DNA of 36,784 bases. Source: Candidatus Chloroploca mongolica. Lineage in GTDB: Bacteria; Chloroflexota; Chloroflexia; Chloroflexales; Chloroflexaceae. The first letter of the stretch is position 1; each line of letters opens with the position of its first letter. This document shows positions 1,104 to 32,689 of this stretch, piece by piece. Both the position numbers and the translations under genes were made by a program. Under the pieces are notes generated by a model. The model was not told where the DNA came from. It did not search any database and saw only the letters and a list, made by a program, of their open reading frames with translations. The DNA is taken from NCBI RefSeq assembly GCF_004762035.2, contig NZ_SIJK02000051.1:1-36784 (forward strand), read 5' to 3'.

Positions 1104-1131
1104 GTTTCGCATACGACACTGGTTTGTGTGG

Positions 1132-1199: not shown

Positions 1200-1323
1200 T
1201 CGTTGCGTCTCTCGCGCTGCGGCACCTCGGCCCCGGCGCGGGCAGCGCAGGTCGTATGCCGAAGGCGTTGTTGCATGTATCATGACGGCAGGTGGTGGAA
1301 CCCTTCCCTCCAGGAGTACATCG

Positions 1324-4480: not shown

Positions 4481-7400
4481 ATGACGCACGACGAACTGAT
4501 CGCGTTGGCCGACGAGCTACGCGCCCTCCGCGCGCGGTGGGGCGCGGCGGCGGCCCGCGCTGCGCTGGCAACGAACACCACGCTGACAGCGGCGCACCGC
4601 ACCTTCGTTGAAGCCGAGGTGTTCGGTGAAGCGACGCCAGCGGGCGGTGGTGATACGATCACCGCAGGCAATCTCACCCAGAGCACGGCTGCCATCGGCC
4701 AAGGGGCCACGGCGACGACCGAGGGCCAGGCGACGGTGAGCGGCGGGCAGGTTGATGCCCCAGTCGTAGGGCTCAACCTGGGCACGATCATCTACCAACG
4801 CGCCCCCAGCGAGGACGAGCAGCAGCGGCTGATCTGGTATCTCGATGCGCTGGCGAATGATCTGCGCACGCTGCCGCTGCGGGGCCTGGATACCCAATTG
4901 GTGGAAGCGCAGGGCCTCGATCTGGCCCGGGTCTATGTGCTGCTCGCGACGACGACGCTCTTGCCGCTGGCGACCGGCTCGCGGGAAGCGCTGCGGCCCT
5001 ACTTTGCCAATGACAACCTGACCCAGCCTGCCGACGCGTACGATCCCGAACGTGTGCTGCCGGTCGCGGCGGTGCTGGCAACCAGGGTGGCCGAGGCCGA
5101 CGACGGCAGTGCCCGTGCGGATGACGCGGCACCGCTGACGCTGCTTAGAGCACAGGCGGCGACCGAGGCGTTGGCTGATCAGCCACGCCTGGTGGTGCTG
5201 GGCGATCCGGGCAGCGGCAAGAGTACCTTCGTACGCCATCTGGCCTGGGCGCTGGCGCGGCGCGGGTTGGATCAGGCTGACCCGGCGACGGCCTTGCCGG
5301 GGTGGGACGCGATCCCGCCGGTGCTACCGCTGCTGCTGCCGCTGCGTCGGCTGGCCGGAGCGCTGGCGAAGCGGGCGACTACAGCGCAGACCGTGATGAC
5401 GTTGCTGCGTGCCACGCTTGCCGGATACGGGGTCGCTCAACCCAACGATCTGCTGACGGATGCGCTGGTGCGCGGGGCGGTGATCCTCCTGCTTGATGGG
5501 CTGGATGAAGTGCTGCTGGAACGGACGGACAAAGCCGCAGATCGGACCACGACGTTGCAGGCGGTGCAGGCGTTCGCGGAGCGCTATCCGAAGGTGCGCC
5601 TGGTGGTGACCTGTCGTACGCGGGCGTTCACCAAGGAGTTGCAGGCGTTGCTCGGCTGGCCGGTGGCGACGCTGGCCCCGTTGACGCTGGGCCAGGTACG
5701 GGCGTTTGTCCCGGCCTGGTATGGCGAACTGGTGGCGCACGGGCATCTGGCGCAGGCCCAAGCGGAGGGGTTGAGTGCGGAGTTGATCGCGACGATTGCG
5801 GCAAGTCCCCGCTTACGGGCGATGGCGGCCTCGCCGTTGCTGGTGACCTTGATGGCCTTGCTGCTGTTTCGGCGGGGTACCTTGCCGCGTGATCGTCCGA
5901 CGCTCTACGAGCAGATCCTGGAATTGCTGCTGGGCGAGTGGGACAAAGTGCATGACGGGCAGAACCTGGCCGATGCGCTGGGGCGCCCGGACTGGACAAC
6001 CGCCCGCTTGCGCCCGCTGCTCGACCGGCTCTCCTACGACGCGCATGCGGCGGGGTCGTCGGAAGATGGACGCGGGCGGCTGGGTAAAAGCCAGATCCGC
6101 GATGCGTTGATCGAGTTCTTTGAAGCCGCGAAGCTCCCGGAACCTTGGGGGGCGGCGGAGCGCTGTCTGGACTATATCGAACACCGGAGCGGGTTGGTGA
6201 CCCCGGACGGGCCGACAAGCTATGTCTTTGCGCACCTGACCTTGCAGGAACACTGCGCCGGGCGGCACATGCTGCTCAGTCGTGATCCGGTGGCGCAGGT
6301 CTTAGCGCGGCGCGATGATGACCGCTGGCGCGAGCCGCTCTTCCTGGGGGTGGGGGTGGTGCAGGCGACGAATCCGTTTCTGGTCGAGAAGGTGCTGCGG
6401 GTGCTGGTTGACCGGCGCGAGCAGGGGGCAGCGAAGCCCGTGGCGCGTTGGTACCGCGATCTGATCCTGGCGGCGGAGTTGGGCGTTGATCGCGACTGGA
6501 CGTATCTGGCTGAGCAGCAGGTGGATGTCGCTGGCTTGCAGGCTGATCTGCGTGACGGCTTCGTGACGCTGCTGACTGACCGCGACCAACCCCTGCCGGT
6601 GGCCGAGCGGGTGCGGGCCGGGTTCCTGCTGGGTGATTTGGGTGATCCGCGCTTGCCCGTGACGGTTGCGGCGTGGCAAGCGGAACTGGCCCAGCGGAGC
6701 ACGACGTTTGGGCAGCCACAGGGGTACTGGTGTTGTGTGCCAGCGGGCAGTTATCAGATTGGCGGGTGGGACAAGGGGCAAGCCGCTGCTACCCTGCCCT
6801 TGCCCGCCTTCTGGATCGCCCGCTATCCGATCACGGTGGCGCAGTACGCTGCGTTTGTCGCCGAGGGCTATGGCGACCGAGCGCAACGCTGGTGGACGCC
6901 GCAGGGCTGGCGGTGGAAGCAGGAGCGGCACCGCCAGCAGCCGGGGGTGTGGGATTATGCTCGCTTCAGCGGGGCCAATCAGCCAGTGATCGAGGTCACC
7001 TGGTATGAGGCGACGGCCTTTTGTGCCTGGTTGAGCGACCGCCTGGCTGAGGCGCTGCCGGCAGGCTGGACGCTGCGTTTGCCGACCGAGGCGGAGTGGG
7101 AGGTTGCCGCAGCATATGACGCGCAGGGCCAGCGGCATCCCTACCCGTGGGGCGAAGCGGAGCCCACGCCAGGCGTGGCGATCTATGACGCCAGCCAGGT
7201 CGGGCGATCCGCTCCTGTCGGCTGTTGTCCCGCAGGGGTGGCGGCGTGTGGTGCCCTTGATATGGCGGGCAATGTGTGGGAGTGGGCCAGCAGCAGCTAC
7301 CGCGCCTACCCAGCCGAGGCCGCGCAGGAGCGGAAAGACTTTACAACTGATAATTGGGATGTGCCGTGGCGAGGTGGGTCATGGCGTCAGGATAGCACGT

Positions 7401-7516
7401 ATGTTCGCTGCGGGGCGCGGAACTGGCTCCATCCCGGCGGCACGCTCAACGTCCTGGGTTTTCGGGTGGTGGCGGCCCCCCTTGTTCGAACGGATGTCCT
7501 GAATTCTGATTTCTGA
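4481..7516 (+). CDS. NACHT-type STAND ATPase with C-terminal FGE-sulfatase (C-type-lectin fold) domain, copy 2
   Basis: This 1011-aa protein starts at ATG 4481, with AAGGAG nine bases upstream. It lies 94 bases after copy 1 and is very similar to it from the linker onward, so the pair is a tandem duplication. Walker A GDPGSGK has its Lys at residue 247. Walker B LLLDGLDE and the VVTCRTRAF sensor are intact, and the FGE-fold domain spans ~753-1000 (LPTEAEWEVAAAY, GNVWEW, RGGSW, VRCGAR, GFRVVAAP). Residues 1-55 (MTHDELIALADELRALRARW) share almost nothing with copy 1. They may be a small adaptor or effector-associated domain giving each copy a different partner; that is inference. The C-terminal ~30 codons are hypervariable, as in copy 1. 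Both copies are probably co-transcribed, since no clear terminator lies between them. Confidence 0.85.
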   Translation: MTHDELIALADELRALRARWGAAAARAALATNTTLTAAHRTFVEAEVFGEATPAGGGDTITAGNLTQSTAAIGQGATATTEGQATVSGGQVDAPVVGLNLGTIIYQRAPSEDEQQRLIWYLDALANDLRTLPLRGLDTQLVEAQGLDLARVYVLLATTTLLPLATGSREALRPYFANDNLTQPADAYDPERVLPVAAVLATRVAEADDGSARADDAAPLTLLRAQAATEALADQPRLVVLGDPGSGKSTFVRHLAWALARRGLDQADPATALPGWDAIPPVLPLLLPLRRLAGALAKRATTAQTVMTLLRATLAGYGVAQPNDLLTDALVRGAVILLLDGLDEVLLERTDKAADRTTTLQAVQAFAERYPKVRLVVTCRTRAFTKELQALLGWPVATLAPLTLGQVRAFVPAWYGELVAHGHLAQAQAEGLSAELIATIAASPRLRAMAASPLLVTLMALLLFRRGTLPRDRPTLYEQILELLLGEWDKVHDGQNLADALGRPDWTTARLRPLLDRLSYDAHAAGSSEDGRGRLGKSQIRDALIEFFEAAKLPEPWGAAERCLDYIEHRSGLVTPDGPTSYVFAHLTLQEHCAGRHMLLSRDPVAQVLARRDDDRWREPLFLGVGVVQATNPFLVEKVLRVLVDRREQGAAKPVARWYRDLILAAELGVDRDWTYLAEQQVDVAGLQADLRDGFVTLLTDRDQPLPVAERVRAGFLLGDLGDPRLPVTVAAWQAELAQRSTTFGQPQGYWCCVPAGSYQIGGWDKGQAAATLPLPAFWIARYPITVAQYAAFVAEGYGDRAQRWWTPQGWRWKQERHRQQPGVWDYARFSGANQPVIEVTWYEATAFCAWLSDRLAEALPAGWTLRLPTEAEWEVAAAYDAQGQRHPYPWGEAEPTPGVAIYDASQVGRSAPVGCCPAGVAACGALDMAGNVWEWASSSYRAYPAEAAQERKDFTTDNWDVPWRGGSWRQDSTYVRCGARNWLHPGGTLNVLGFRVVAAPLVRTDVLNSDF
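7367..7456 (+). other. Putative DGR variable region (VR2) in NACHT-FGE copy 2
   Basis: This is the counterpart of 4237-4326. Invariant islands (GTTCGCTGCGGGGCGCGG at 7403-7420, CCC at 7433, GGTTTTCGGGTGGTG from 7457) alternate with codons that differ from copy 1 only at positions 1 and 2. Just outside, differences are again mostly single and often synonymous (for example CTC/CTT, CGC/CGA), so the hypervariation is local. Confidence 0.65.
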
Positions 7517-11624: not shown

Positions 11625-11777
11625 ATGGCTCCCCAGGCTTACACTTTGCATATCATGATCGTGAGGTGTCGCTATGCGTCTGCGCGGGCCATTGCTGAGG
11701 CGCTGGTAGGCAAAGAAGGCGATGTTGCGGGTATTCTCGAGCGCTATTTCGATGGAGAGCGATCCGCCGATGCCTAA
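11625..11777 (+). CDS. Small hypothetical protein overlapping the drmD start
   Basis: This is a 50-aa frame (MAPQAYTLHIMIVRCRYASA) ending at TAA 11775-11777, with a possible inner start at 11655. The C-terminal half (ARAIAEALVGKEGDVAGILE) looks protein-like (amphipathic, normal composition). Its stop overlaps ATG 11770 of drmD by eight bases, a coupling-like arrangement. No clear ribosome site and no family is recognised. It may be the remnant of a longer gene or a leader peptide. Confidence 0.3.
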   Translation: MAPQAYTLHIMIVRCRYASARAIAEALVGKEGDVAGILERYFDGERSADA

Positions 11778-14700
11778 CCGCATCGTTGCAAAACATGAGT
11801 CGAGACCATTGATGCCTGTTGTCACTGGAACGTCACTCCCTGAGCAGGGCCAACTCGTCGAGGTTCGTAATCGCCGCTACGTCGTTGCCGAGGTGGTGAA
11901 GAGCAGTCGGCAGCGCAGTCTCCTCGACGCCGGCCTCCTCGGCGCTCAGCACCTTGTCACGTTGACCTCGGTTGAGGATGACGCGCTCGGTGAGGATCTG
12001 CGGGTCATTTGGGAGCTCGAACCTGGGGCGCGCGTCTACGACCAGCGGTCGCTCCCCACTCCCACAGGCTTCGATGCCCCTGAGCGTCTCGATGCCTTCC
12101 TCAACGCGGTGCGCTGGGGCGCCGCTTCCTCGGCTGACGTGCGCGGCCTCCAGGCACCATTTCGCAGCGGCATCACGATTGAGGACTACCAGCTCGATCC
12201 GGTCGCCCGCGCGATTCAGATGCCGCGCGTCAACCTGCTCATCGCCGATGACGTTGGCCTCGGCAAGACCATCGAGGCTGGCCTGGTCGTTCAGGAGTTG
12301 ATCATCCGCCACCGCGCCCGCCGCATCCTGATCGTCTGTCCCTCGGCGCTCCAGATCCAGTGGCGCGATCAGATGCGCGAGAAGTTCGGCCTGGATTTTC
12401 GGATTGTCGATAGCGAGCTGATGCGCGAACTGCGCCGCTCTCGCGGCATCCACGTGAATCCCTGGGGGCACTTCCCGCGCCTCATCACCTCCATCGATTA
12501 CCTCAAGCGTGACCAGCCGATGCGCCTGTTCCGCGAGACGCTCCCCGCTACCGGCGAACTGGCTTACCCGCGTACCTACGACCTGCTCATCGTCGATGAG
12601 GCCCACAACGTGGCGCCTTCCGGTGTCGGCAACTACGCGATTGATTCGCTGCGCACCACCGCCATCCGCACCCTGACCCCGCACTTCGAGCATAAGCTCT
12701 TCCTTACCGCCACACCGCACAACGGCTACGCGGAGAGCTTCTCCGCCCTGTTGGAGCTGCTCGATAATCAGCGCTTCGCCCGCGGCGTCCCGCCCGACCG
12801 CACAATGCTCCAGAGCGTAATGATTCGCCGGCTTAAGTCGGAGCTGACCTACGACTGGAACGACCGCCCGCGCTTCCCGCGGCGCGAGTTGCAGGCGATC
12901 GAGGTGTCCTACACCGATGAGGAGCGCCAGGCCCATCGCGACCTCCAGGCCTACACCCGGCTGCGCCGCCAGCACGCCGGCGACAGCGTCGAGCGCACGG
13001 CCACCGAGTTTGTGCTCAAGCTGCTCAAGAAGCGCCTGCTCTCCTCACCCGCCGCCTTCGCCACCACCATCGAGAAGCACCGCGCATCGCTGAACGAGGC
13101 GACCCGGCCCGAGCGCAGGGCGCATGCGCGTCGCCCCCAGGCCGGCATCCTCAAGGCGATGCTGGCCGAGGTCGAGGAGGGTTACGCCACCGACCAGGAG
13201 CAGCTTGAGGCCGAGAGCGACGCCATCGCGACCACGACGGCGCTCTTCCACGCGCCCACCCCGGAGGAGCGCGTGCTCCTCGACCGCATGCTGGCCTGGG
13301 CCACCGACGCCCGTCGGCGCCCCGACCGCAAGGCCCGCGCCCTGCTGGACTGGGTAAAGGGCATCGTGTGCCCGAACGGCCCGTGGACCGACCAGCGGGT
13401 GATCATTTTTAGCGAGTACCGCGACACCCAGCGGTGGCTCCAGGGCCTGCTCGCCGCCGAGAAGCTCACCGAGGGTGAGCGCCTGATGCTGCTCTTCGGC
13501 GGGATGAATGACGATGACCGCGAGCAGGTGAAGGCCGCCTTCCAGGCCAGCCCCGCCGTGAGCCCGGTGCGCATCCTGCTCGCCACCGACGCGGCCTCCG
13601 AGGGCATCGACCTCCAGCGCCACTGCCACCGGCTCGTCCACTACGAGATCCCCTGGAACCCCAATCGCATGGAGCAGCGCAACGGCCGCATCGACCGCCA
13701 CGGCCAGCGCGAGAACCCGCTGGTCTTTCACTTCGCCCCCGCTGGCTTTTCCCGGCTGCCAATCAGCCGTGATGTGCCGGTCGGCGAGCTGGAGGGCGAC
13801 CTGGAGTTCCTGATGCGGGCGGTGCAGAAGGTCGAGCAGATCCGCGAGGACCTGGGCAAGGTCGGGCCGGTGATCGCCGACCAGGTGACTGAGGCGATGC
13901 TCGGGACGCGCCGCCGCCTGGAGACGACCGAGGCCGAGCGCAAGGCCGAGCCCGGCCGGCGCATGGTCAAGTTTGAGCAGAACCTGAACGAGCAGATCAA
14001 GCGCCTCTATCAGCAGCTCCAAGAGAGCCGCCACGCGCTCCACCTGGCCCCCGAGAATGTCGAGGCGGTGGTGACAATCGCGCTGGAGTTGGCCGGGCAG
14101 TCGCCCCTGATCGAGGCAAAGCTACCGGGCGTCTGGCCCGACCCCACCGGCGAACGGCGGCGCTGCCCGGTGTTTCGCCTGCCGGTGCTGCGCGGGAGCT
14201 GGGAGGCCTGCGCCGAGGGGTTGCTCCACCCGCACACCCAGGCAGTACGGCCGATTGTCTTCGATCACGACCTGGCCAGGGGCCGCGACGACGTGGTGCT
14301 CGCCCACCTGAACCATCGGCTGGTGCAGATGTCGATGCGGCTGCTGCGCGCCGAGGTATGGAGCGGCGAGGGGCGCAAGAAGCTCAACCGCATCACCGCC
14401 CGCGTCGTTCCCGACCACCTGACGACGAATCCCCTGGCGATTGTCTACGGGCGCCTAGTGGTAATCGGCGGCGACAGCTACCGGCTGCACGAGGAACTGA
14501 TCGCGGCGGGCGGCGAGATCAGCCAGGGACGCTTCCGGCGCTGGAACGTGGGCCAGGTGCAGGGCGCGATCGAGGCGATGACAAGCCGCGAGGTCGGCGC
14601 GACGATGCAGGCGGATCTGGCCGCGCTCTGGCCGAGCATCGAGGGCAACGTGCAGACCGCACTGGCGGCGCGCGGGAAGGAGCGCGCCGAGAGCCTCCAG

Positions 14701-15015
14701 CGGCTCCTCGACGAGCGGCGCGACAAGGAGACCGCCGATATCACCCTCGTGCTAGAGGATCTGGAGCGCACCATCCGTGCCGAGTTGACCGAAGTCGAGA
14801 AACCGACCCAGCAACTCATGCTGCCCCTGGCAGAGTTCAGCACAGCCGAGCGTGAGCAGTACCGGCGCAATATCGACGCCCTGCGCCTGCGCCTTGACCA
14901 GATCCCGCGCGAACTAGAGCAGGAGACCAAGGGTATCGCCGCGCGCTACGCCGAGCCCCAGGCCCGCCTCTTCCCGGTGGCGGTGATGTTCCTCGTTCCT
15001 CAACGACTCGCGTAG
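11770..15015 (+). CDS. drmD: DrmD: SNF2-family helicase of class 1 DISARM
   Basis: The protein is 1081 aa from ATG 11770; ATGs at 11722 and 11812 are alternatives. GGAGAG about 12 bases upstream mildly favours 11770, and family-like sequence (LPEQGQLVEVRNRRYVVAEV) begins after 11812. The SF2 motifs are complete: Walker A ADDVGLGKT (Lys ~166), DEAH box VDEAHN (~276), TATPHNG, motif V LATDAASEGIDLQ, and motif VI NGRIDRHGQ (~637-646). A helical C-terminal third follows. SNF2 helicases translocate on double-stranded DNA. In class 1 DISARM, drmD stands at the head of the operon with drmMI and drmABC, and all four are found downstream here. The catalytic motifs look intact, so the gene is probably functional. 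Confidence 0.9.
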   Translation: MPNRIVAKHESRPLMPVVTGTSLPEQGQLVEVRNRRYVVAEVVKSSRQRSLLDAGLLGAQHLVTLTSVEDDALGEDLRVIWELEPGARVYDQRSLPTPTGFDAPERLDAFLNAVRWGAASSADVRGLQAPFRSGITIEDYQLDPVARAIQMPRVNLLIADDVGLGKTIEAGLVVQELIIRHRARRILIVCPSALQIQWRDQMREKFGLDFRIVDSELMRELRRSRGIHVNPWGHFPRLITSIDYLKRDQPMRLFRETLPATGELAYPRTYDLLIVDEAHNVAPSGVGNYAIDSLRTTAIRTLTPHFEHKLFLTATPHNGYAESFSALLELLDNQRFARGVPPDRTMLQSVMIRRLKSELTYDWNDRPRFPRRELQAIEVSYTDEERQAHRDLQAYTRLRRQHAGDSVERTATEFVLKLLKKRLLSSPAAFATTIEKHRASLNEATRPERRAHARRPQAGILKAMLAEVEEGYATDQEQLEAESDAIATTTALFHAPTPEERVLLDRMLAWATDARRRPDRKARALLDWVKGIVCPNGPWTDQRVIIFSEYRDTQRWLQGLLAAEKLTEGERLMLLFGGMNDDDREQVKAAFQASPAVSPVRILLATDAASEGIDLQRHCHRLVHYEIPWNPNRMEQRNGRIDRHGQRENPLVFHFAPAGFSRLPISRDVPVGELEGDLEFLMRAVQKVEQIREDLGKVGPVIADQVTEAMLGTRRRLETTEAERKAEPGRRMVKFEQNLNEQIKRLYQQLQESRHALHLAPENVEAVVTIALELAGQSPLIEAKLPGVWPDPTGERRRCPVFRLPVLRGSWEACAEGLLHPHTQAVRPIVFDHDLARGRDDVVLAHLNHRLVQMSMRLLRAEVWSGEGRKKLNRITARVVPDHLTTNPLAIVYGRLVVIGGDSYRLHEELIAAGGEISQGRFRRWNVGQVQGAIEAMTSREVGATMQADLAALWPSIEGNVQTALAARGKERAESLQRLLDERRDKETADITLVLEDLERTIRAELTEVEKPTQQLMLPLAEFSTAEREQYRRNIDALRLRLDQIPRELEQETKGIAARYAEPQARLFPVAVMFLVPQRLA

Positions 15016-15510: not shown

Positions 15511-18500
15511 ATGTCCATTGCCCGCCACCACACCGAATGGCTTGCTCTCGTCGATATCTCGGGGCCGTTCCTCGCGCTGCCGGTGCTCGCCCGCGTCTTC
15601 CCCCAGGGGCTCGATGCGCCCGACGCCGACGTGGCCCGCGAACTGCGCCTGGCCTATGATGAGTGGCTCGACAATACCGGTGGCCTGCAACCCGATCCGG
15701 CGCTCCACCGCACCTGGGTCGAATGGGTGTTGCGGCGTGTGCTGGAGATGCCAGACGTGGTGGTGCGAGGATTGGGGATCGGGGATCGGGGATCGGGTTT
15801 CCCTGCCATTGATCCGGCCCTGGAAGGACGGCTAACGGTACAAGTGCCCGAGCACGGCGAGATCTTGCGCCCCGACTTCGTGATCGCTGAGCCGGCGTCC
15901 GACCCGATCCCTGACTCCCGATCCCCGATCCCCAGAGTGCTGGTCGTCGTCGTCCCGTCCAGGCAGGGCCTGGAAAAGCCCATGGCCCGCACGGCATGGC
16001 AAGCCTCGCCCGCCACGCGCATGATGACCCTCCTGCGCGGCGCAGGCGTGCGCCTCGGGTTGCTCACCAACGGCGAGCAGTGGATGCTGATCGACCGCCC
16101 CGCCGACGAGAACGTCACTACCGGCTTCACCTCGTGGTACGCCCGCCTCTGGCTCGATGAGCCGCTGACCCTGCGCGCCTTCCGCTCGCTCCTCGGCGCC
16201 CATCGCCTCTTCGGCGTACCCGACGACCGCACCCTTGAGGCCCTGCTCACCGCCAGCGCCGACGACCGCCAGGAGGTCACCGACCAGCTCGGCTACCAGG
16301 TACGCCGCGCCGTCGAACTACTCGTGCAGGCAATCGACGTGGCCGACCAGAACGCCGGCCGTGACCTCCTCACCGAGGTGCCCGAGGAGCAACTCTACGA
16401 GGCGGCCCTGACCGTGATGATGCGCCTTGTCTTCCTGCTCTTCGCCGAAGAGCAGAACCTGCTCCTCCTGGGCGACGATATCTACGATCGGCACTACGCC
16501 GTCTCGACGCTGTTGGAGGCGCTACGCACGGACGCCGACAGCCACGGCGAGGAGGTGCTGGAGCGCCGCCACGACGCCTGGGGCCGCCTCCTGGCGATCT
16601 TCCGCGCCGTTTATGCCGGCTTCGACCACGATCGGCTTGATATGCCCGCCTATGGCGGCAGCCTGTTCAGCCCCGACCGCTATCCGTTCCTTGAAGGCCG
16701 CCCCCTGGGCACAAGCTGGCGCGAGACGCCGGCCCACCCCCTGCCGATCTCCAACCGGGTCGTACTGCATCTGCTGGAGGCGCTCCAGGTGCTGCGCGTG
16801 AAGGTGCGCGAGGGCGCGCCCCAGGAGACGCGCCGGGTCTCGTTCCGCGCCCTCGACATTGAGCAGATCGGCCATGTCTACGAGGGCCTGCTCGACCACA
16901 CCGCCGTGCGTGCAAAGGAGCCGGTGCTCGGCCTGGCGGGCACCCGCGAGCAGGAACCCGAGGTGGCGCTTTCGCGCCTGGAGACGCTCGTAGGGATCGG
17001 GGATCAGGGATCAGGGATCGGGAAGAGCGCGGTGGCCGATCCCGTATCCCCGATCCCCGATCCCCTCCTGGCCTTCCTCAAGGAGCAAACCGGCCGCTCC
17101 GAGGGCGCGCTGAAGAAGGCATGGAAAGCCCAGCCCGACGTCTTTCGCGCGGCTCTTTTGCGCGGTGCCTGCGGCAACGACGAGGCACTCTACGCCCGCG
17201 TGCTGCCCTTCGCCGGCCTCATCCGCGACGATGACTACGGTCGCCCGACGGTGATTTCTGCCGGCAGCGTCTACGTCACCACGGGCAACGAGCGCCGCGC
17301 CACCGGCACGCACTACACGCCACGCTCGCTCACCGAACCCATTGTCCAGCACACGCTGGAGCCCCTGGTCTACGTCGGCCCCGCCGAGGGTCTGCCCAAA
17401 GAGCAGTGGAAGCTACGCCCCGCCGCCGATCTGCTCAAGCTGACGGTTTGTGATATGGCGATGGGCAGCGGCGCATTTCTCGTACAGGCGTGCCGTTACC
17501 TGAGTGAGCGACTGCTGGAGGCCTGGGCGTTTGCGGAGGGGTCGGGGATCGGGGATCGGGGGTCGGGGATCGGGGGTCGGGGGTCGGGGGTCGGGGATCG
17601 GGGATCGGGACGCTTGCGTAAGGATAATTCAGATGGCAATTCAGACGTATCGCGACCTCGAGGTGTGGCAGCGGGCGATGGACTTGGCCGAGGAGGTCTA
17701 TCAGCAGACACAGAATTTTCCACGGGAGGAGCTGTACGGGCTGACGAGCCAGATCCGACGGGCGGTAGTCTCGGTGCCGGCGAATATCGCCGAGGGCTAC
17801 GGACGGATTCATCGCAAGGAGTATATCCATCATCTCTCGATCGCGCAGGGCTCGCTCCAGGAGGCGGAGACGCAGCTCCAGATTACCGTGCGACTCCAGT
17901 ACCTGGATCGCGAGCAGGTCAAGCGGGCCTGGAACCTGATGCAGGACGTCGGGAAGATGTTGCGGCGTCTGATGCTCTCGCTCTCAGAGAAGAAGACTCA
18001 GCCCAAAGACCCGAGGCCCGAGACCCAAGACCCGGGGTCCGAAGGCTGATCACTCCCGAAGGCTTCCTCACCACCAACCCCGACGACGCCATCCCCGCCG
18101 ACCCCGCCGAGCGCCTGGTCTTCGCCCGCCGCCTCGTGGCCGATCGTTGCCTCTATGGCGTGGACAAGAACCCCCTCGCCGTGGAGATGGCCAAGCTCTC
18201 GCTCTGGCTGATCACGCTTGCCAAAGGGCGGCCGTTCTCGTTCCTCGACCACGCCCTGCGCGCCGGCGACTCGCTGCTCGGCATCAGCGACGTGGAACAG
18301 TTGATGAACTGGTCGCTCCGCAAGGGCGACGAGGCAAAGCCCGTCCAGATACCCTTGATCCGCCACCAGGTCGAAGAGGCGCTAGAGGTAGCATTACGCG
18401 AGCGGCGCAAGATCGCCGGCACGCTGGTGCGCGAGGCCCGCGACGCCGACCTCAAGGCCGGTTGGCTGAGCACTGCCGAGTCTGCCCTGGCCCTCGTGCG

Positions 18501-20670
18501 CCTCGGCGCGGATCTCCTTGTTGCCGCCGAGCTTGTGCCCGACAAGAGTGTGCGCGAGACGCTGCGGAAGGACTGGCTCGCCCGCTATTCGCTGCTGCTC
18601 AGCGCTGCCGAAGACACCCGTGCCGGCAAGTTCACAATCGGCGGGCAGACTGATGCCGCCAATCGTGGCGCCTTTGCTCAGTTGCGTGCCGAGGCTGAGC
18701 GCTATTTGCAGGGCCGGCGGCCGTTTCATTGGCCGGTTGAGTTTCCTGAGGTCTTCGACCTGATCCTGGAAGAGCGCTCTATCGAGCAGACGCTTGACGA
18801 GGCAAAGGCTGGCAAGCTGAGCGTCGAGAGTCCTTCGCCGGGCTTCAGCGCGGTGGTGGGTAACCCGCCGTTTATGGGAGGATCAAAGATAACGGGGGCT
18901 TTAGGAGAGAACTATCGGGAACTAATAGTTCGAGAACTAGCTGGTGGGGCAAAAGGAAAAGCCGATCTTTGTGCTTATTTTATGTTACGTGCTAAGAATC
19001 TATTAAGCCCTTGGGGTGGTTTTGGTTTGATTATGACAAACTCTATTTCGCAGGGTGATAATCGATTAGTTAGTATTGATTATATAACAAAAAATAAGGG
19101 GAAGATAATTCGGGCTTGGTCGAATTGGACATGGCCTGGTCCTGCTGGTGTTACAGTAGCACTTGTTTGGGTTTCTCTGGCGCAGTGGAGCGGAACTTTC
19201 GTACTGGATGGTAGCCACGTGGCTGGCATTACCCCTTTTCTTACCATAGCGAACGACATAGGCTTTCAAAAGACGCCACAGTACTTAAAGCAAAATGAAC
19301 TTTTGTCCTTTAGAGGTACCGAGATTAAGGGCCTGGGCTTTGTGCTCGACCCATTAGAGGCGCATGCGATACTTGAGCAGGAACCGTCAAGCAAAGACGT
19401 AATATTCCCATACCTTACTGGGGAAGATCTGAACTCTCGGCCAGATCAGTCTGCAAGCCGAATGGTTATCAATTTTCATAACTGGGATTTTGAACGTGCA
19501 AATCAGTACCAACGATGCATGCAGATTGTAACTGAGAAAGTCAAGCCTTATCGAGAAACAATAACAAAGCAGATACACGAATCAGATTACTGGAAGTTTT
19601 GGGATAAGCGGTTGGACTGCTATGCGCGAATCGCAGGAATGCGCCGTGTACTCGTTCGTTCTCAAGTTGGCAATAGACACAGTATGACTTTCCAACCAAC
19701 GAATATCGTCTTTTCTCATAAAGTTTTAGTTTTTATTAGGGATGCTTATTCCGATTTTTCAGTTCTACAATCATCACTTCACGAGGAGTGGGCCAGACAC
19801 TATAGTGGCGCCTCTTTGCGAACCGATATGTGCTATTCAACCAAACAATGTCTTGAAACATTCGCTTTTCCTGAGTTTCAGGACGACAGTGGGCAAAAAA
19901 TCACCAACCTCTCATCATCAAGTAGAAACTATTTAGAGAGCATCGGCGAAAAGTACTATGAATACCGCTATTCTGTTGCCTTAGAGCGAAATGAAGGCTT
20001 AACCAAAACCTACAACCGCTTCCACAACCCCCAAGAGGCGAGCGAGGACATCGCCGAACTACGGCGCTTGCACGTTGAGATGGACAACGCCGTGGCGGCG
20101 GCATACGGGTGGTCGGATCTGGAATTAGACCACGGTTTCCACGAGACAAAGCAGGGGCTACGCTACACCATCAGCGAAGCGGCGCGGCGGGCGGTGCTGG
20201 ATCGACTGCTGGCGCTGAACCATGCGCGTTATGCCGAGGAGGTGGCGGCAGGGCTGCATGAGAAGAAGAAGGGATCGGGGGCCGGGGATCGGGGATCGGG
20301 GAAGCGCAAGAGGGCCGATGGCGCTATGGCGAATAGTGCTGGCTCTGAAATGCACGTTGGTCCCCGATCTCTAGCCCCCGATCCTCAGCTCACCCTAGAC
20401 TTTTTCGGGGCACCCGAGGGCGAGCAGAGCGTGTTGCAAGCGAACAGAGACGAGGGCCAGCCCCCCGATCCCCAATCCCTAATCCCCGAACCCTACGTGC
20501 GGCTCAAGGCCATCCTCTCCCAGCGCGGCTCCCTGGCCAACGGCGACGTCCAGGCGGCCCTCGGCGTAGATGGCGAGACGGCGCGGGCGTTGCTCCAGCG
20601 GTTGGTAGACGAAGGACTGGCGACCGTCGAGGGGCAGCGGCGCGGGACGCGGTATGTGAGGAGGGGGTAG
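15511..20670 (+). CDS. drmMI: DrmMI: class 1 DISARM adenine-N6 DNA methyltransferase, with large in-frame insertions
   Basis: The protein is 1719 aa. Motif I DMAMGSGAFLVQA lies at ~648, LYGVDKNPLAVEMAKLSLWL follows the insertion, and catalytic motif IV NPPF is at 1118-1121, so this is a gamma-type N6-adenine methylase like PglX/Eco57I-type enzymes. Next come a target-recognition region (~1125-1500), a conserved YNRFHNPQEAS tail and a C-terminal winged-helix-like segment (~1660-1719). The enzyme would mark host DNA so that DISARM ignores it. Oddities: residues ~677-846 are a low-complexity insertion (GSGIGDRGSG and a Gly/Ala/Arg run) that is the overprint of a complete four-helix gene in another frame. 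Further GGGGATC/GATCCCC tracts insert at ~88-95, 131-141, 495-518, 1588-1598 and 1650-1660. The target-recognition stretch is AT-richer than its flanks. The frame stays intact throughout, so it could be active. ATG 15511 has no strong ribosome site. Confidence 0.88.
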   Translation: MSIARHHTEWLALVDISGPFLALPVLARVFPQGLDAPDADVARELRLAYDEWLDNTGGLQPDPALHRTWVEWVLRRVLEMPDVVVRGLGIGDRGSGFPAIDPALEGRLTVQVPEHGEILRPDFVIAEPASDPIPDSRSPIPRVLVVVVPSRQGLEKPMARTAWQASPATRMMTLLRGAGVRLGLLTNGEQWMLIDRPADENVTTGFTSWYARLWLDEPLTLRAFRSLLGAHRLFGVPDDRTLEALLTASADDRQEVTDQLGYQVRRAVELLVQAIDVADQNAGRDLLTEVPEEQLYEAALTVMMRLVFLLFAEEQNLLLLGDDIYDRHYAVSTLLEALRTDADSHGEEVLERRHDAWGRLLAIFRAVYAGFDHDRLDMPAYGGSLFSPDRYPFLEGRPLGTSWRETPAHPLPISNRVVLHLLEALQVLRVKVREGAPQETRRVSFRALDIEQIGHVYEGLLDHTAVRAKEPVLGLAGTREQEPEVALSRLETLVGIGDQGSGIGKSAVADPVSPIPDPLLAFLKEQTGRSEGALKKAWKAQPDVFRAALLRGACGNDEALYARVLPFAGLIRDDDYGRPTVISAGSVYVTTGNERRATGTHYTPRSLTEPIVQHTLEPLVYVGPAEGLPKEQWKLRPAADLLKLTVCDMAMGSGAFLVQACRYLSERLLEAWAFAEGSGIGDRGSGIGGRGSGVGDRGSGRLRKDNSDGNSDVSRPRGVAAGDGLGRGGLSADTEFSTGGAVRADEPDPTGGSLGAGEYRRGLRTDSSQGVYPSSLDRAGLAPGGGDAAPDYRATPVPGSRAGQAGLEPDAGRREDVAASDALALREEDSAQRPEARDPRPGVRRLITPEGFLTTNPDDAIPADPAERLVFARRLVADRCLYGVDKNPLAVEMAKLSLWLITLAKGRPFSFLDHALRAGDSLLGISDVEQLMNWSLRKGDEAKPVQIPLIRHQVEEALEVALRERRKIAGTLVREARDADLKAGWLSTAESALALVRLGADLLVAAELVPDKSVRETLRKDWLARYSLLLSAAEDTRAGKFTIGGQTDAANRGAFAQLRAEAERYLQGRRPFHWPVEFPEVFDLILEERSIEQTLDEAKAGKLSVESPSPGFSAVVGNPPFMGGSKITGALGENYRELIVRELAGGAKGKADLCAYFMLRAKNLLSPWGGFGLIMTNSISQGDNRLVSIDYITKNKGKIIRAWSNWTWPGPAGVTVALVWVSLAQWSGTFVLDGSHVAGITPFLTIANDIGFQKTPQYLKQNELLSFRGTEIKGLGFVLDPLEAHAILEQEPSSKDVIFPYLTGEDLNSRPDQSASRMVINFHNWDFERANQYQRCMQIVTEKVKPYRETITKQIHESDYWKFWDKRLDCYARIAGMRRVLVRSQVGNRHSMTFQPTNIVFSHKVLVFIRDAYSDFSVLQSSLHEEWARHYSGASLRTDMCYSTKQCLETFAFPEFQDDSGQKITNLSSSSRNYLESIGEKYYEYRYSVALERNEGLTKTYNRFHNPQEASEDIAELRRLHVEMDNAVAAAYGWSDLELDHGFHETKQGLRYTISEAARRAVLDRLLALNHARYAEEVAAGLHEKKKGSGAGDRGSGKRKRADGAMANSAGSEMHVGPRSLAPDPQLTLDFFGAPEGEQSVLQANRDEGQPPDPQSLIPEPYVRLKAILSQRGSLANGDVQAALGVDGETARALLQRLVDEGLATVEGQRRGTRYVRRG
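15774..15933. repeat. GGGGATC tract pair 1 (in drmMI)
   Basis: (GGGGATC)3 at 15774-15797 is followed by the complementary tract CCCGATCCC...GATCCCC at 15903-15933. Both are within the drmMI reading frame (LGIGDRGSG and DPIPDSRSPIP) and add residues without breaking it. Confidence 0.85.
16993..17065. repeat. GGGGATC tract pair 2, hairpin-forming (in drmMI)
   Basis: G-rich tract 16993-17023 (GGGATCGGGGATCAGGGATC) is followed after 14 bases by its C-rich complement at 17038-17065. This would give a stable long hairpin in the drmMI mRNA. In protein it reads GIGDQGSGIGKSAVADPVSP. Confidence 0.85.
17537..18038. repeat. GGGGTCG/GGGGATC tract pair 3, enclosing the nested four-helix gene
   Basis: A ~70-base G-rich tract (17537-17610, alternating GGGGATC and GGGGGTC) precedes the nested gene. 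A C-rich tract of GACCCGAGG/GACCCGGGG units (18008-18038) overlaps its 3' end. The two are partly complementary and could pair across the inserted gene, as in intervening sequences of 23S rRNA. Confidence 0.8.
17633..18049 (+). CDS. Four-helix bundle protein (23S rRNA IVP family) nested inside drmMI in another frame
   Basis: This 138-aa protein starts at ATG 17633 (MAIQTYRDLEVWQRAMDLAE) with AAGGAT eight bases upstream, so it has its own translation signal. The sequence NFPREELYGLTSQIRRAVVS, VPANIAEGYGR, IAQGSLQEAETQLQ is the full family pattern of the S23/IVP four-helix bundle proteins (TIGR02436/PF05635). The family is known from intervening sequences in 23S rRNA genes and is structurally related to the DGR accessory protein Avd. 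It is encoded wholly inside drmMI, one frame away, and the drmMI frame has no stop across it. G-rich and C-rich tracts flank it. This looks like an intervening-sequence element that landed between methylase motifs I and IV and stayed because it kept both frames open. Function is unknown. Confidence 0.9.
   Translation: MAIQTYRDLEVWQRAMDLAEEVYQQTQNFPREELYGLTSQIRRAVVSVPANIAEGYGRIHRKEYIHHLSIAQGSLQEAETQLQITVRLQYLDREQVKRAWNLMQDVGKMLRRLMLSLSEKKTQPKDPRPETQDPGSEG
18870..20020. other. AT-richer segment of drmMI covering the target-recognition region
   Basis: Immediately after the NPPF motif the composition drops from strongly GC-rich to clearly AT-rich with A/T-ending codons (for example ATATAACAAAAAATAAGG near 19081). 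It returns to GC-rich at about 20020, before the conserved YNRFHNP tail. The boundaries coincide with the specificity part of this enzyme class, suggesting replacement of the recognition domain by recombination with an unrelated allele. Confidence 0.65.
20271..20493. repeat. GGGGATC tract group 4 (3' part of drmMI)
   Basis: G-rich tract 20271-20302 is followed by C-rich tracts 20361-20385 and 20461-20493, all in the drmMI frame (KGSGAGDRGSGK, SLAPDPQ, PPDPQSLIPEP). They separate the conserved C-terminal region from the terminal winged-helix-like segment. Confidence 0.8.
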
Positions 20671-26640: not shown

Positions 26641-28767
26641 ATGACTACCTACGAACTCTCCTTCACCCCAACCTTCTACAACGAGTCCCTGAACCTGCCC
26701 AAGCAGGTCAGCAGGCTCGTCAGCCAGAAACTGAAGGTGCTTGCCGACGATCCCTTCTCGGCCCAGGGCGACGCCAAAAAGCTCAAGGGCTACAACAACG
26801 TTTACCGCGCCCGCGTCGGCGACTACCGTGTGTTCTACAGCATCGGCCAGGGCTGGGTGAAGTTGCTCAGCGTGCGCAAACGCGACGAACGCACCTACGA
26901 GGACGATCTGCCGGAGGTGGTGGCGCCTGTAGTCGCGCCTGACCCCGCCGCGCTGGAACCGCAACAGCAGAGATCGGGGATCGGGGATTGGGGTTCAGCA
27001 ACCTGGCACACGTCAACCCAACCCAACACCGATCCCCAGCTCGCCGAAACTGCTCCCCTGAATGCTAAACCCTCCACCGCGCTGCCCTTCGCCATCACTG
27101 AAGCGATTCTCGCTCAGTGGCAGATACCGACCGAGCATCAGCCCGCCGCACTGACGGCCCGCACCGAGGACGATCTGCTTGAACTGCCGATCCCCGAGCG
27201 TTACATCAGCCGCATCCTCGATAACCTCTTCCCACAGCCGCTCGCTGCAATCGCCGCGCAGCCCGAGTTTGTGCTGCCGACGCCGGAAGCGATCGAGCGC
27301 TTCGCCGAGGAAGACCTTGGGAGCTTCTTGCTCCGCCTCACACCTGAGCAGCAGGAGCTTGTGAGCCAGGAGCGCCGCGGGCCCACGCTGGTGAAGGGCG
27401 GGCCGGGCACGGGCAAGTCTACCCTGGCGCTCTACCGCGTCCAGCGCCTGCTTGACCAGGGTGTAACGTCGATCCTGTTCACCACCTATACCAACGCCCT
27501 CGTGGGTTACTCTGAGCAGTTGCTCACCCACCTCCTCGGCAAACCGCCGGCGAAGTGCGGAGTCAAGGTCACAACGGTTGATAGCCTGGCCGCGCACTCC
27601 TTCGCGAAGGGCTCGCGCTGGCCGAAGTTCGCCACCGAGGGCCAGGCGCTGGATCACCTTGGCGTGGCGCTCCGCGAGGCGGACATTCCCGCTGCCAACG
27701 CCTTTGATCGTCAGGTGCGTCAGGCAGGTTTGGAGCGACTCGGCCCCGACTACCTGCTCCAGGAGTTTCTGAGCGTCATCGAGGCGTGGGGCATCGACAG
27801 CGCAGAGGCATACGCCAGCATCGAGCGGCGCGGTCGGCGCACGCCGATCAAACTTACGGTGCGCGAGGCGATCTGGGCCGTCTACACCCACTGGCGCGAA
27901 CTGATGCGCGCAGAGGGCATTGTGCTCAACGAGCAGATCCGGCGCGGGGCGCTCGAGTATGCCGCCACGCTTGATCCCAAGCCCTACCAGGCGCTCGTCA
28001 TCGACGAGGCCCAGGATCTATCGCCGGTTGCGCTGCGCTTCCTGCTGAACCTCGTGCCGTCGCTGGAGCATGTCTACCTCACCGCCGACGCCTCACAGTC
28101 GCTCTACCAGCGCGGCTTCAGTTGGAAGCAGGTTCACAGCGACCTCAGCATGGCCGGCCGCACGTTACTGCTGAAACGCAACTATCGCAACACTGCCCAG
28201 ATTATGACGGCCTGCGGCACGATCCTCGCCGGTAGCGGCGCAGGTGACAATGAAAGCCTCAATCAAGAGCCTTCGGCGCACCAAGGCGATCCGCCGCTCA
28301 TCCGGTTGGTCGACGATGCCGCCGTTGAAGCCGCAGCAGTCCACACATTCTTTGTTGAGTCGGCCCGACGATATCGCTTGCCTGCCCATAGCGGAGCCGT
28401 GCTCTGTATGAGCAAGAATACCGGCGAAGCGCTGGCAAGACGTCTGAGCGAATTGGGCCTGCCTGCCGTATTCCAGTCCGGCAAGGATGTTGACATCACT
28501 GCGCAGAAGATCAAGGTGCTCACGCTTCACTCGGCCAAGGGGCTGGAGTTTCCCTTTGTCGCCGTAGTGGGGCTGGACGGCGGTCGCTTCCCTCGAGTCA
28601 TTGAAGATTACCCGGTCGAGGAGCTCGCGGCGATGGAAGACGAACAGCGCCGCCTCTTCTTCGTCGGCTGCACGCGCGCGATGCGGTCGCTGCTGGTCTG
28701 TGGCTCACAGGAAACACCTTCCGCCTTCCTCGATCCGTTACAGCCGCCCACCTGGGCCAGGGACTAA
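26641..28767 (+). CDS. RelE-fold / UvrD-like SF1 helicase fusion
   Basis: The protein is 708 aa. Residues 1-90 (SFTPTFYNESLNLPKQVSRL, KKLKGYNNVYRARVGDYRVF, VKLLSVRKRDERTY) are a RelE/ParE-type toxin fold. A linker with a GGGGATC-derived RSGIGDWGSAT insert follows. Residues ~225-700 are an SF1A helicase: Walker A GGPGTGKST (Lys259), motif II VIDEAQDLSP (455-459), KRNYRNTAQI, TLHSAKGLEFPFVAVVGLD and RRLFFVGCTRAM. RelE-fold proteins usually cleave mRNA on the ribosome, so the fusion may couple RNA cleavage or ribosome contact to DNA unwinding, or the fold may serve only for binding; neither is shown. It ends four bases before drmA and is probably in the same operon. It is not part of the published DISARM core. 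Confidence 0.85.
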   Translation: MTTYELSFTPTFYNESLNLPKQVSRLVSQKLKVLADDPFSAQGDAKKLKGYNNVYRARVGDYRVFYSIGQGWVKLLSVRKRDERTYEDDLPEVVAPVVAPDPAALEPQQQRSGIGDWGSATWHTSTQPNTDPQLAETAPLNAKPSTALPFAITEAILAQWQIPTEHQPAALTARTEDDLLELPIPERYISRILDNLFPQPLAAIAAQPEFVLPTPEAIERFAEEDLGSFLLRLTPEQQELVSQERRGPTLVKGGPGTGKSTLALYRVQRLLDQGVTSILFTTYTNALVGYSEQLLTHLLGKPPAKCGVKVTTVDSLAAHSFAKGSRWPKFATEGQALDHLGVALREADIPAANAFDRQVRQAGLERLGPDYLLQEFLSVIEAWGIDSAEAYASIERRGRRTPIKLTVREAIWAVYTHWRELMRAEGIVLNEQIRRGALEYAATLDPKPYQALVIDEAQDLSPVALRFLLNLVPSLEHVYLTADASQSLYQRGFSWKQVHSDLSMAGRTLLLKRNYRNTAQIMTACGTILAGSGAGDNESLNQEPSAHQGDPPLIRLVDDAAVEAAAVHTFFVESARRYRLPAHSGAVLCMSKNTGEALARRLSELGLPAVFQSGKDVDITAQKIKVLTLHSAKGLEFPFVAVVGLDGGRFPRVIEDYPVEELAAMEDEQRRLFFVGCTRAMRSLLVCGSQETPSAFLDPLQPPTWARD
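26973..27037. repeat. GGGGATC tract pair 5 (in the RelE-UvrD gene)
   Basis: GATCGGGGATCGGGGATTGGGG at 26973-26994 is followed by a single GATCCCC at 27031-27037, in the linker between the RelE and helicase domains. The reading frame is preserved. Confidence 0.75.
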
Positions 28768-28771
28768 ACCA

Positions 28772-31700
28772 ATGAACCGCATCAAGCTTTCCACAGTGCT
28801 GAAATCCGGGCCGGCTGCCATCATGGAGATGAGCGGGCGACTGGCCCGCGGCGAGATCGTCCTCGACGGCGGCGGAGTCGCTGCGCTCACCCCGGAGCAA
28901 CTCGAGTTCCTCCTCTCCGCGATCCCCACGAGCTGGGACACGCCCGAGCTCGGTGAAGTAATCGACGCGCCCACTCTCAGCCCCGCCCTGGGTGATCAGC
29001 TGATCGACTGGCTCAACCGCCGCCATGGGCGGGCGGCGAGCGGGGATCAGGGAGCAGGGATCGGGGATCAGGAACCGCCGCCCGGCCCACCTATCCCCGT
29101 TAGTGACCAGATCCCCGGCCCCCGATCCCCGGCCCCCGAACCCCGATCCCCGGCCCCCGAACCCCGATCCCCAAACCTGCGCGACCAACTCGAGGATCTG
29201 GTCATCCGGCAGCTCCTCGGCCCCTGGGATGGCCCGGAGGAGGTCGTGGACGAGGCGACCGTGCGGGGGCGCTACCTGGTTGGGATGCTCGCCCCCCGCG
29301 CCAGCAGCGGTATCCCCGAGGAGTACGACGACGGCGACCTGGGCGGCAGCGATGGCGAGGACGGCTCGGCTGATGCGCCGCCCCCGAAGGCTACGACCGC
29401 GATGCTGCCATCGTCAATCGGGCTGACCTTCGCCGTCTCCCTTGAGGCCGACGCCATTGCGGTGACGGCACGCTGGGGCTCCTACGAGCGGGTCGAGATC
29501 AAGGAGGATCGCTACCGGCGAAAGGACGGCAGCTACCAGCACCCATGGAAACGCACCCCGATCGATGTGATCCTCCCGCCGATCTCACTGCGCCACGGCA
29601 AGGTCGGCCCGCTCGTGATCAGCAAAGAGCATGAGCGCGTCACCCTCCAGGGCGTCATCCGCAAGCGCCTGGGCGAGTGGATTGTGACCCTGTTTCTCGT
29701 GAATGGCCAGGAGGAACCAAAGCGCAGCAAGGACAGCGCGTGGGTCTTCCAGCCTGAGCTTGTGGTTCGCGCGCCCGACGGCACAGGGATGTTCCGCCGG
29801 CGACCGCTTTCCGGCGACCAGCTCGATCCCGAAGACCAACTCACGGCGATGCTCTACCGCAATGAGGTTGAGTTCGCCGTCGGCCACGGCGTGGCTGTGG
29901 ACGCAACGACGGATCGTGATGCCGATGGCCGGAGCATCCACGACTGCGCGGTCGAGGTGCGGACGGTCGTCGTGCCGACCTATGAGGTGCCCCGCACCAC
30001 GCCGCCGACGCCGGATGACCCAGGGTTCGCACGCCTGGAAAGCCTAACGGTAGACATGGCGGCCCTTGCGGTTATCCCCGACGGACAGTTCGCCGCCCAC
30101 CTAGCGCCGCTGGCCGAAGCCTACGCCGAATGGATCGAGCGCCAGGCAGCACGCCTGGAGGCGCCGACGCCCGACCTCCAGGCGTTTATCAACCCTGGGC
30201 AAGAGGCACTGCGCCGCTGCCGCAAGGCGCTTGAACGCATCCGCGCCGGCATCGACCTGCTCGACACGAACCCCCAGGCGGCGGCGGCCTTCCGCTTCGC
30301 CAACCGCGCAATGGCCATGCAGCGCACCCGCTCCCTCTACGCCGCCTCGGTACGTCGCGGCGAGAAGAAGGCGCCGGCTGACTTTGATCGGCCCGAGGAT
30401 CATACCTGGCGCGCATTTCAGTTAGGCTTTCTGCTCCTGAATCTACCCCCGCTCACCGACCCTCGCCACACCGATCGCGCCCTACCCGCCGACAGCCTTG
30501 ACAGCAACCCCGCCGCATCGGTCGCCGATCTGCTCTGGTTCCCGACCGGCGGCGGCAAGACGGAGGCGTATCTCGGCCTCACCGCCTACACCCTCGGCAT
30601 CCGGCGCCTTCAGGGCGAGATCGCCGGGCGCAGCGGACTGACCGGCGTCGCCGTGCTGATGCGCTACACGCTCCGCCTGCTGACGCTCCAGCAGTTCCAG
30701 CGCGCCGCTACGCTGATCTGCGCCTGCGAGGTGATACGCCGGGAAGACCCGGCGCGCTGGGGCGAAGAGCCATTCCGCATCGGCCTGTGGGTGGGTCAGC
30801 GCTCGACACCAAACTGGGTTGAGGATGCCGATGAAGCGATCAAGCAGATGAAAAAGGGCGGCAACGCCAGCGGCGGCACCCCCTACCAGTTCAAGCACTG
30901 CCCCTGGTGCGGCACGCCGATTGACCCGGGCCGCGACCTGGCCGCCGAACCACCGGAGCAAGGTCGCAGCCGCGTGCTGATCTACTGCGGCAGCCTGATG
31001 AACCACTGCCCTTTCAACGCGCGGCAGGCGGACGGCGAAGGGCTACCGGTGATGGTGGTGGACGAGGAGATCTATCATCGCTTGCCCTCGCTCCTCATCG
31101 CGACGGTCGATAAGTTCGCCCAGATGCCCTGGAACGGGCGCGTGGCCGCCCTCTTTGGGCAGGTGACCGGCTACTGTGAGCGGCACGGCTACCTGACCCC
31201 GGACTCCGACCACCCGGCCCAGAGCCATCCTGCCACGAAGGGCGGGCGGCACAGCGCCGCTCGCGTTATCCCCGTAGCTCCGCTGCGGCCGCCGGATCTG
31301 ATCATTCAGGACGAGCTCCACCTGATCAGCGGCCCCCTTGGGACGCTCGTCGGCCTCTACGAGACCGCCATTGATCACCTCGCGACGTGGACCGTAGATG
31401 GGATGAAGGTTCGGCCGAAAGTGATCGCCTCCACCGCTACCATCCGCCGCGCCGACCAGCAGGTGCACAGTTTGTTCCTCCGGCGTGTCGAGATCTTCCC
31501 GCCCCAGGGACTCGATGCCGGCGACAACTTCTTCGCGCTGCAGCGGTCGCCAAGCGACGAACACCCCGGCCGGCGCTACATAGGCATCTGCGCCCCCGGC
31601 ATTCGGCACAAGACGGCGCTCATCCAGTCCTACGTGGCCTTCCTCGCGGCCGCCCAGCAACTCTACGAGTCGGCGCTGCACCGCGCTGACCCGTACATGA

Positions 31701-32686: not shown

Positions 32687-32689
32687 ACG

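Follow-up and report, generated by a model that had tools for sequence, protein, structure and literature searches.

A complete gene of the IVP family (four-helix bundle) lies inside the DISARM methyltransferase gene drmMI of Candidatus Chloroploca mongolica, on the same strand and in a second reading frame. The window, meaning the whole stretch of 36,784 nucleotides that was analysed, is contig C107 of a 6.3 Mb draft genome (G000). The insertion, the two open frames, purifying selection on the IVP codons and recurrence in 11 host/site groups are all evident at the level of sequence. The arrangement is probably best explained by an IVP cassette that is tolerated as a dual-coding insertion, repeated across hosts and read through by the host frame. 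The cassette, consisting of a heptad array, the four-helix gene and a roughly inverted heptad array, would have been inserted in the drmMI loop after motif I. Ribosomes from the drmMI start would pass through the insert in IVP frame +2 and generate a methylase with a ~170-residue disordered loop; other ribosomes would start at the internal Shine–Dalgarno sequence and ATG, producing the IVP protein from the same mRNA. We infer production of both proteins from this mRNA and activity of the methylase. The relevant features of the window are as follows.

11722–15015, + strand: drmD, operon member with drmMI (PADLOC DrmD, 1418 bits)
15511–20670, + strand: drmMI, the host gene, a DISARM class 1 methyltransferase in a single ORF of 1719 aa (ORF list; PADLOC DrmMI, 1655 bits)
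17452–17481, + strand: DMAMGSGAFL, 5′ of the insert (conserved in the DrmMI alignment)
17536–17613, + strand: upstream heptad array of ~11 units GGGATCG/GGGGTCG, left end of the insert (repeat scan)
17563–18084, + strand: stretch of the drmMI product predicted to be disordered (AlphaFold2 residues 102–258 and 262–275, pLDDT <50)
17620–17624, + strand: Shine–Dalgarno-like AAGGA, 8 nt ahead of the nested ATG (sequence)
17633–18049, + strand: nested IVP (four-helix bundle) gene, ATG to stop, 138 aa, frame +1 relative to drmMI (PF05635, TIGR02436, NF008911, PDB 2gsc)
18008–18040, + strand: degenerate downstream C-rich heptads inside the IVP tail, right end of the insert (sequence; missed by the array scan)
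18157–18180, + strand: GVDKNPLA, host sequence 3′ of the insert (conserved in the DrmMI alignment)
18859–18876, + strand: GNPPF (sequence)
28568–35385, + strand: block of drmA, drmB and drmC (PADLOC)
28568–32683, + strand: drmA (PADLOC, 1053 bits)
32690–34564, + strand: drmB (PADLOC, 272 bits)
34564–35382, + strand: drmC (PADLOC, 248 bits)

DISARM class 1 is defined by the gene set drmD, drmMI, drmA, drmB and drmC, and all five genes occur together in the window. The drmMI product matches Eco57I, MmeI_Mtase and MmeI_TRD in Pfam, and a sequence search returned no PDB relative of DrmMI at E 0.001. We take DMAMGSGAFL to be methylase motif I and GNPPF to be motif IV. A first-pass annotation had placed the insert between these two motifs, a position that can now be given more exactly as between DMAMGSGAFL (17452) and GVDKNPLA (18157), with GNPPF at 18859. 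Elsewhere in the window, two tandem large proteins, each with a NACHT and an FGE-sulfatase domain, are encoded upstream of the DISARM operon at 1030–4386 and 4481–7516. Inside the DISARM region, 26641–28767 encodes a UvrD-like helicase with a ParE-toxin-like match (25.6 bits, cut-off 23) close to the N-terminus.

The open stretch of the nested frame extends back to GTG 17504, and the likely start is ATG 17633. The nested product matches PF05635 with 139.5 bits (cut-off 33.8; positions 1–105 of the 106 in the profile), TIGR02436 with 132.1 bits (cut-off 24) and NF008911 with 162 bits, and its PDB match is 2gsc (E 1.4e-23). The drmMI frame is stop-free across the entire nested gene. The first-pass description of a complete four-helix gene one frame off in drmMI, with both frames open and its own Shine–Dalgarno sequence, is borne out by these results, as is its view of an IVS-type element in a protein gene rather than in rRNA. 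The borders proposed there, 17537–18049, are accurate to a few bases: the upstream heptad array begins at 17536, and host-like sequence resumes at about 18040 with RRLITPEG, which is shared with the DrmMI gene of another genome, G030. The window's genome contains seven PF05635 matches, of which only the C69/C83 pair is near-identical; the window IVP does not have the many near-identical dispersed copies of an element of the Rickettsia palindromic type (RPE). With respect to phage origin, the window IVP protein is unmatched in 50,697 phage records at E 1e-5. Avd of diversity-generating retroelements belongs to a related four-helix family, but the nested IVP scores 37.7 bits against bAvd PF22296 (cut-off 40) and 41.1 against DivGenRetAVD (cut-off 80), and does not classify as Avd.

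The insertion is apparent from the length of the loop after motif I. Both flanking motifs were located in 57 of the 80 DrmMI homologues examined. Comparison with homologues lacking the insert, suggested at first pass for defining the borders, showed shorter sites: the motif-to-motif span is 213–399 nt in the 55 homologues without an IVP (213–252 nt in 41 of them and exactly 225 nt in 23), compared with 630 and 678 nt in the two homologues with an IVP and 705 nt in the window. As in RPE-like in-frame insertion, homologues without the insert exist and the host frame is preserved, with both motifs in one frame. A second DrmMI gene in the same genome (contig C16; its 5′ end lies beyond the contig) carries an IVP at the matching place with the host frame open, and so do the DrmMI genes of genomes G002, which belongs to the same genus, and G030. 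Since Chloroflexales relatives without an IVP (L087–L089, L091 and L092; 285–318 nt) carry other repeat-like sequence there, the DrmMI loop seems to be a general landing place for inserts. The loop repeat of L087, L089, L091 and L092 is a different one, AAAGCCGCAAAG and, reversed, CTTTGCG-type sequence.

An AlphaFold2 model of DrmMI (44 sequences) has 279 of 649 residues at pLDDT ≥90, and the core flanking the insert is mostly above 90. The disordered stretch in the model is bounded by helix 72–94 after motif I and helix 282–296 before GVDKNPLA. This prediction, with pLDDT <50 over the insert, agrees with the ~170-residue disordered methylase loop proposed at first pass.

The two overlapping frames differ in the constraint that they display. 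Between the window and C16 IVP genes, 19, 11 and 42 changes fall at codon positions 1, 2 and 3 of 118 codons, and amino acid identity reaches 0.77 in the IVP frame, against 0.57 and 0.58 in the host and third frames, respectively. Correspondingly, identity between the window and G030 is 0.77 in the IVP frame, 0.62 in the host frame and 0.61 in the third frame. Pairs of IVP genes nested in HmaB methylases have a codon pattern like that of the window/C16 pair, and outside the insert, changes in five host segments are most frequent at position 3. The position-specific changes and frame identities indicate purifying selection on the IVP codons; inside the insert, openness is the only constraint visible in the host frame, and its residues are not conserved. 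The first-pass annotation had asked whether homologues carry the same residues as conserved sequence; C16, G002 and G030 do carry the IVP, and their host-frame residues are no more alike than those of the unused third frame.

IVP copies were read from the window's relatives, its phylum, the phylum of a Verrucomicrobia genome and four plasmids. The census is a sample of matches, in which 170 loci gave 166 distinct copies of at least 280 nt; the loci read were those supplied with matches plus 80 chosen regions, mostly the best of the match lists, and some chosen regions have long open IVP frames and may favour fusions. L136 entered via the DrmMI search rather than the IVP search, one duplicate sequence was merged, and L048 is the same contig as L093. 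The census omits the divergent PF05635 matches L005–L007 of the window's own genome, L182–L186, L284 and L285, which have no HMM match, and matches below 280 nt in L073, L200, L216 and L321. Four free copies with 3–4 stops in +2 (L280, L282, L283 and L286) were read outside the 166. The initial split gave 21 copies in a long host ORF in +2, 143 free copies and two set aside, L320 and L190. A search with the host parts against the 144 other IVP loci then gave one further nested locus, L320, which is open in +2, and a weak one-sided match of L047_N to L296 (27% identity); this search lacked the true N-terminal part of L051, L167 and L342, of which an earlier host-homology check had that of L051. 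L190, on a Gemmatirosa plasmid, is open in +2 only from 57 nt upstream, and was dropped as no host was recognised. A further candidate, H4, beside a ribonucleotide reductase gene on a Nostoc plasmid, looked nested and is actually intergenic.

In all, 22 of the 166 copies are nested in a host gene. They make up 11 host/site groups, of which 10 have a DNA methyltransferase (DrmMI, PglX, HmaB, type IIG or type III) as host and one has Mfd.

DrmMI, Chloroflexales: L001, L002, L047, L093
DrmMI, Verrucomicrobia genome: L136 (matching place judged from the downstream side only, as the contig ends upstream)
HmaB: L060, L063, L168, L169
Type IIG-1: L051, L167
Type IIG-2: L059, L181
Type IIG-3: L342
Type III-A: L201
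Type III-B: L298, L306, L320
PglX, C-terminal part: L287, L291
PglX, N-terminal part: L289
Mfd (transcription-repair coupling factor), the only non-methyltransferase host found: L337

Hosts were named via PADLOC or Pfam, except that L167, L168 and L169 were named via similarity to L051 and L060, and the downstream side of L201 and the N-terminal side of L342 from plasmid records annotated as DNA methyltransferase. Uninterrupted sites were also found in other host families. Both motifs were located in 14 of 17 HmaB loci, with spans of 129–180 nt in nine, 585–672 nt in the four with an IVP and 1083 nt in one with a transposase domain. Type IIG-2 sites were readable in 6 of 20 loci, four at 171–228 nt and two with an IVP at 552 and 585 nt. 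Of five type IIG-1 loci, four were readable, two without an IVP in register at 231 and 438 nt and two with an IVP out of register. The HmaB methylase of L279 (800–4855, − strand), and also that of L249, has an in-frame Y1-transposase-like domain (Y1_Tnp, 37.1 bits) at the IVP-cassette loop.

A tree of 94 rows (Chloroflexota, plasmids and L136) requires seven changes of the nested label, at least five of which are forced by well-supported branches; the 14 rows labelled nested include the dropped L190, so at least four forced changes is the safe figure. The tree is without other Verrucomicrobiota copies, and L181 was too short to enter. The Chloroflexales DrmMI rows and the IIG-1 rows each form a supported group, and the four HmaB rows form a weakly supported one (97/15) next to a single free copy. 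Outside their own groups, the IIG-1, IIG-2, HmaB and type III-A copies have free copies as their closest relatives. This topology is consistent with recurrent insertion and subsequent co-inheritance of insert and host.

In each of the 22 nested copies, a host half continues through the IVP without a stop, sharing its strand and using frame IVP+2. None of the 143 free distinct copies is open in +2, a contrast that is partly built in because 21 of the nested copies were chosen by +2 openness. The host-homology check, which is free of this bias and covers already known hosts only, encountered no +2 stop in any nested copy. The per-copy chance of an open +2 frame, calculated from codon usage in the 15 free copies closest in GC, ranges from <0.001 (at GC 0.42) to 0.13, and lies at 1–13% where GC is ≥0.57. 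Multiplying the chances for one copy from each group gives 7e-20, a figure that is overstated since 21 copies were chosen by openness. For the window IVP protein, 8% of draws leave +2 without a stop (codon usage taken from the 15 free IVP genes closest in GC); the window case taken singly is therefore weak evidence, and the parallel cases carry the strength. That figure, and the repeat-rich region, are what could be said for a high-GC ORF open by luck or for contigs misjoined in repeats. Such an account is scarcely credible for an arrangement that recurs in separate assemblies and in two phyla. Coincidence from GC alone is unlikely, as the low-GC copies L287 (0.42) and L298 (0.43) are also open where 6–7 stops are expected.

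The choice of frame has a simple candidate explanation in the coding sequence. Under synonymous recoding, a stop-free frame was attainable in +2 and in antisense frame a0 for 166 of 166 proteins, a set slightly different from the 166 census copies, in +1 for 93, in a1 for 83 and in a2 for 74. Frame +2 is the one that selection could have left, as it and one antisense frame are the only two always openable by synonymous changes alone. Among the 143 free copies, 11 have the antisense in-register frame open as they stand. No convincing antisense host was found; one 277-aa antisense span occurs in L136, which also has a sense host. A passive filter would predict antisense cases, yet 22 of 22 are same-strand and +2, and so sense direction seems to matter, through IVP expression or the mode of element entry.

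The predominance of DNA methyltransferases (10 of 11 host/site groups), together with the uniform strand, might instead reflect a functional partnership, in which the IVP protein works on or alongside the methylase and nesting ensures that the two are expressed together. Such a partnership is improbable in view of the Mfd host, the varying position of the insert within the host between families, and L181, which has a stop in the IVP frame and has kept the host frame without one. Nor is there a methylase neighbourhood of free IVPs among the families listed. For 130 of the 265 ORFs flanking 141 free loci, the commonest Pfam families were ordinary ones, GDP-mannose dehydratase/epimerase (10) and HMGL-like (5), and no DNA-methyltransferase models were present among the 25 most frequent of 112 Pfam families and the 25 of 61 PADLOC families listed. 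Because free-IVP flanks give no sign of methylases among these families, IVPs generally seem to have no methylase association, and methylases seem to be where in-gene insertions survive. DNA methylases are probably the usual hosts of the tolerated cassette by virtue of tolerant loops that collect such inserts.

Heptad arrays are a common feature of IVP flanks. Strongly periodic flanks (at least 28 of 35) are found upstream in 32 of 91 loci and downstream in 28 of 91, with period 7 in 29 and 24, respectively. The heptad unit varies between loci, and the arms tend towards mutual reverse complementarity: for 52 of 91 loci (nested 6/14, free 46/77), the inverted score of the locus itself exceeds those of all 25 other loci tried. 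In the window, the inverted complementarity of the arms scores 12.0, which is not above the other loci but within their range (up to 19.5). The drmMI frame also stays open through three inverted heptad-array pairs that contain no IVP.

15765–15802 / 15903–15936, + strand: inverted heptad-array pair, open drmMI frame, no IVP (repeat scan)
16991–17025 / 17035–17068, + strand: inverted heptad-array pair, open drmMI frame, no IVP (repeat scan)
20270–20306 / 20457–20493, + strand: inverted heptad-array pair, open drmMI frame, no IVP (repeat scan)

Another heptad-array pair lies at 29034–29178, within the drmA frame.

Complementary arms raise the question of removal at the RNA level as in 23S rRNA, whereby the ends would form a stem, RNase III would cut it and the mRNA or protein would be fragmented. 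A cut rRNA is held together in the ribosome, but a cut mRNA has no ribosome-like scaffold to hold its pieces. Furthermore, a stop-free, in-register host frame would be needless if the insert were cut out. The precedent is the Coxiella IVS, which carries 28-bp terminal inverted repeats and undergoes cleavage by RNase III (PMC4990558), and the arms are mutually reverse complementary at many loci. In the window itself, the minimum free energy fold of the insert RNA pairs the ends, but its z of −0.58 is no better than shuffles, and an RNA stem was rejected as the organising feature of this copy. No Rfam match to a structured RNA or intron was found in 17200–18400 at E up to 0.1, and neither Pfam nor NCBIfam gave a match to an intein or splicing domain in drmMI or the nested ORF. 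RNA-level fragmentation is very unlikely on this evidence. The stop-free host frame in all 22 nested copies argues for read-through rather than excision, and removal of the insert from drmMI, which the first-pass annotation had offered as one possibility, appears unlikely.

The host register could be read on both sides in 20 nested loci, L136 and L298 having one unreadable host side; 16 are in register and four are not.

In register: L001, L002, L047, L093, L059, L181, L060, L063, L168, L169, L201, L287, L289, L291, L306, L337
Out of register, with the break in the array stretch: L051, L167 and L342 upstream of the IVP; L320 downstream

At the four out-of-register loci the full methylase is not makeable as written. 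In L342, the N-terminal half of the type IIG gene runs open through the heptad array into the IVP, forming a 633-aa N-half::IVP ORF, and the C-terminal half is in +2. Phasevarion methylase genes may have a switchable frame, with simple repeats inside. The 7-nt heptad units could shift the frame and make the methylase phase-variable, the cassette being kept as a contingency switch for defence methylation: one register would give the full methylase, and in another the N-terminal half would enter the IVP or stop. Modulation of the methylase via such a register switch is possible, and phase-variable N6-methyltransferases are known (PMC11475388, PMC4525171). Decay is an equally simple reading of the four loci, which may be dead genes or assembly errors in repeats, and many nested copies have degenerate arrays in which slippage would be rare. 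The DrmMI genes of C16 and G002, compared over 4065 aligned bases of which 839 differ, have array indels in multiples of three except for two gaps of 38 and 13 nt, which lie 62 alignment columns apart and sum to 51, so that the overall frame is preserved. A contingency switch is rather unlikely as the explanation of the cassette. A broader proposal is doubtful, though slightly less so: an unrecognised class of dual-coding insertions in the DNA methyltransferases of bacteria, chiefly those belonging to defence systems, would be sense-only, use the always-openable sense frame, have a selected IVP, and undergo heptad slippage that switches the host among three states: full methylase, N-half::IVP fusion and off.

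The tolerated dual-coding cassette has partial counterparts among known systems. Phase-variable N6-methyltransferases (phasevarions) are also DNA methylase genes, whereas here a whole gene is inserted besides, and switching is only a candidate property. The 23S rRNA IVS of Coxiella, Leptospira and others likewise has a PF05635 ORF within an insert in a host gene, that of Coxiella lying between inverted ends (as outlined in PMC4990558). Here, in contrast, the host is protein-coding rather than an rRNA gene, its frame is open through the element, the ends are heptad arrays and excision is unlikely. RPEs are likewise repeat elements in frame in protein genes, but are ~150 bp long according to the section on them in PMC10969869, whereas here a complete gene is carried in another frame. 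The heptanucleotide repeats GGGGATT/GGGAATC of Nostoc and Xanthomonas form similar G-rich heptad arrays; the text of PMC4692102 contains none of the terms helix bundle, S23, intervening and in-frame. The literature matches listed (for the IVP family, nested elements, heptad repeats and phase variation) cover rRNA IVS, a MITE review with RPEs, and heptad repeats, and none of those listed reports an IVP gene nested in a protein-coding gene.

The nested copies would provide a repeated natural case in which a complete gene enters another in a second frame without destroying its host, with a simple coding reason for the frame. For the poorly understood IVP/S23 family, they add a further habitat besides rRNA and spacers, as well as a testable bias towards DNA methylases. 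They also carry a warning for annotation: long low-complexity methylase loops can hide real genes, and either gene may be missed.

A second DrmA gene is present in the window's genome at 3–4519 of L045 (G000 contig C68). A free IVP gene lies directly 3′ of it, flanked by other heptad-like units.
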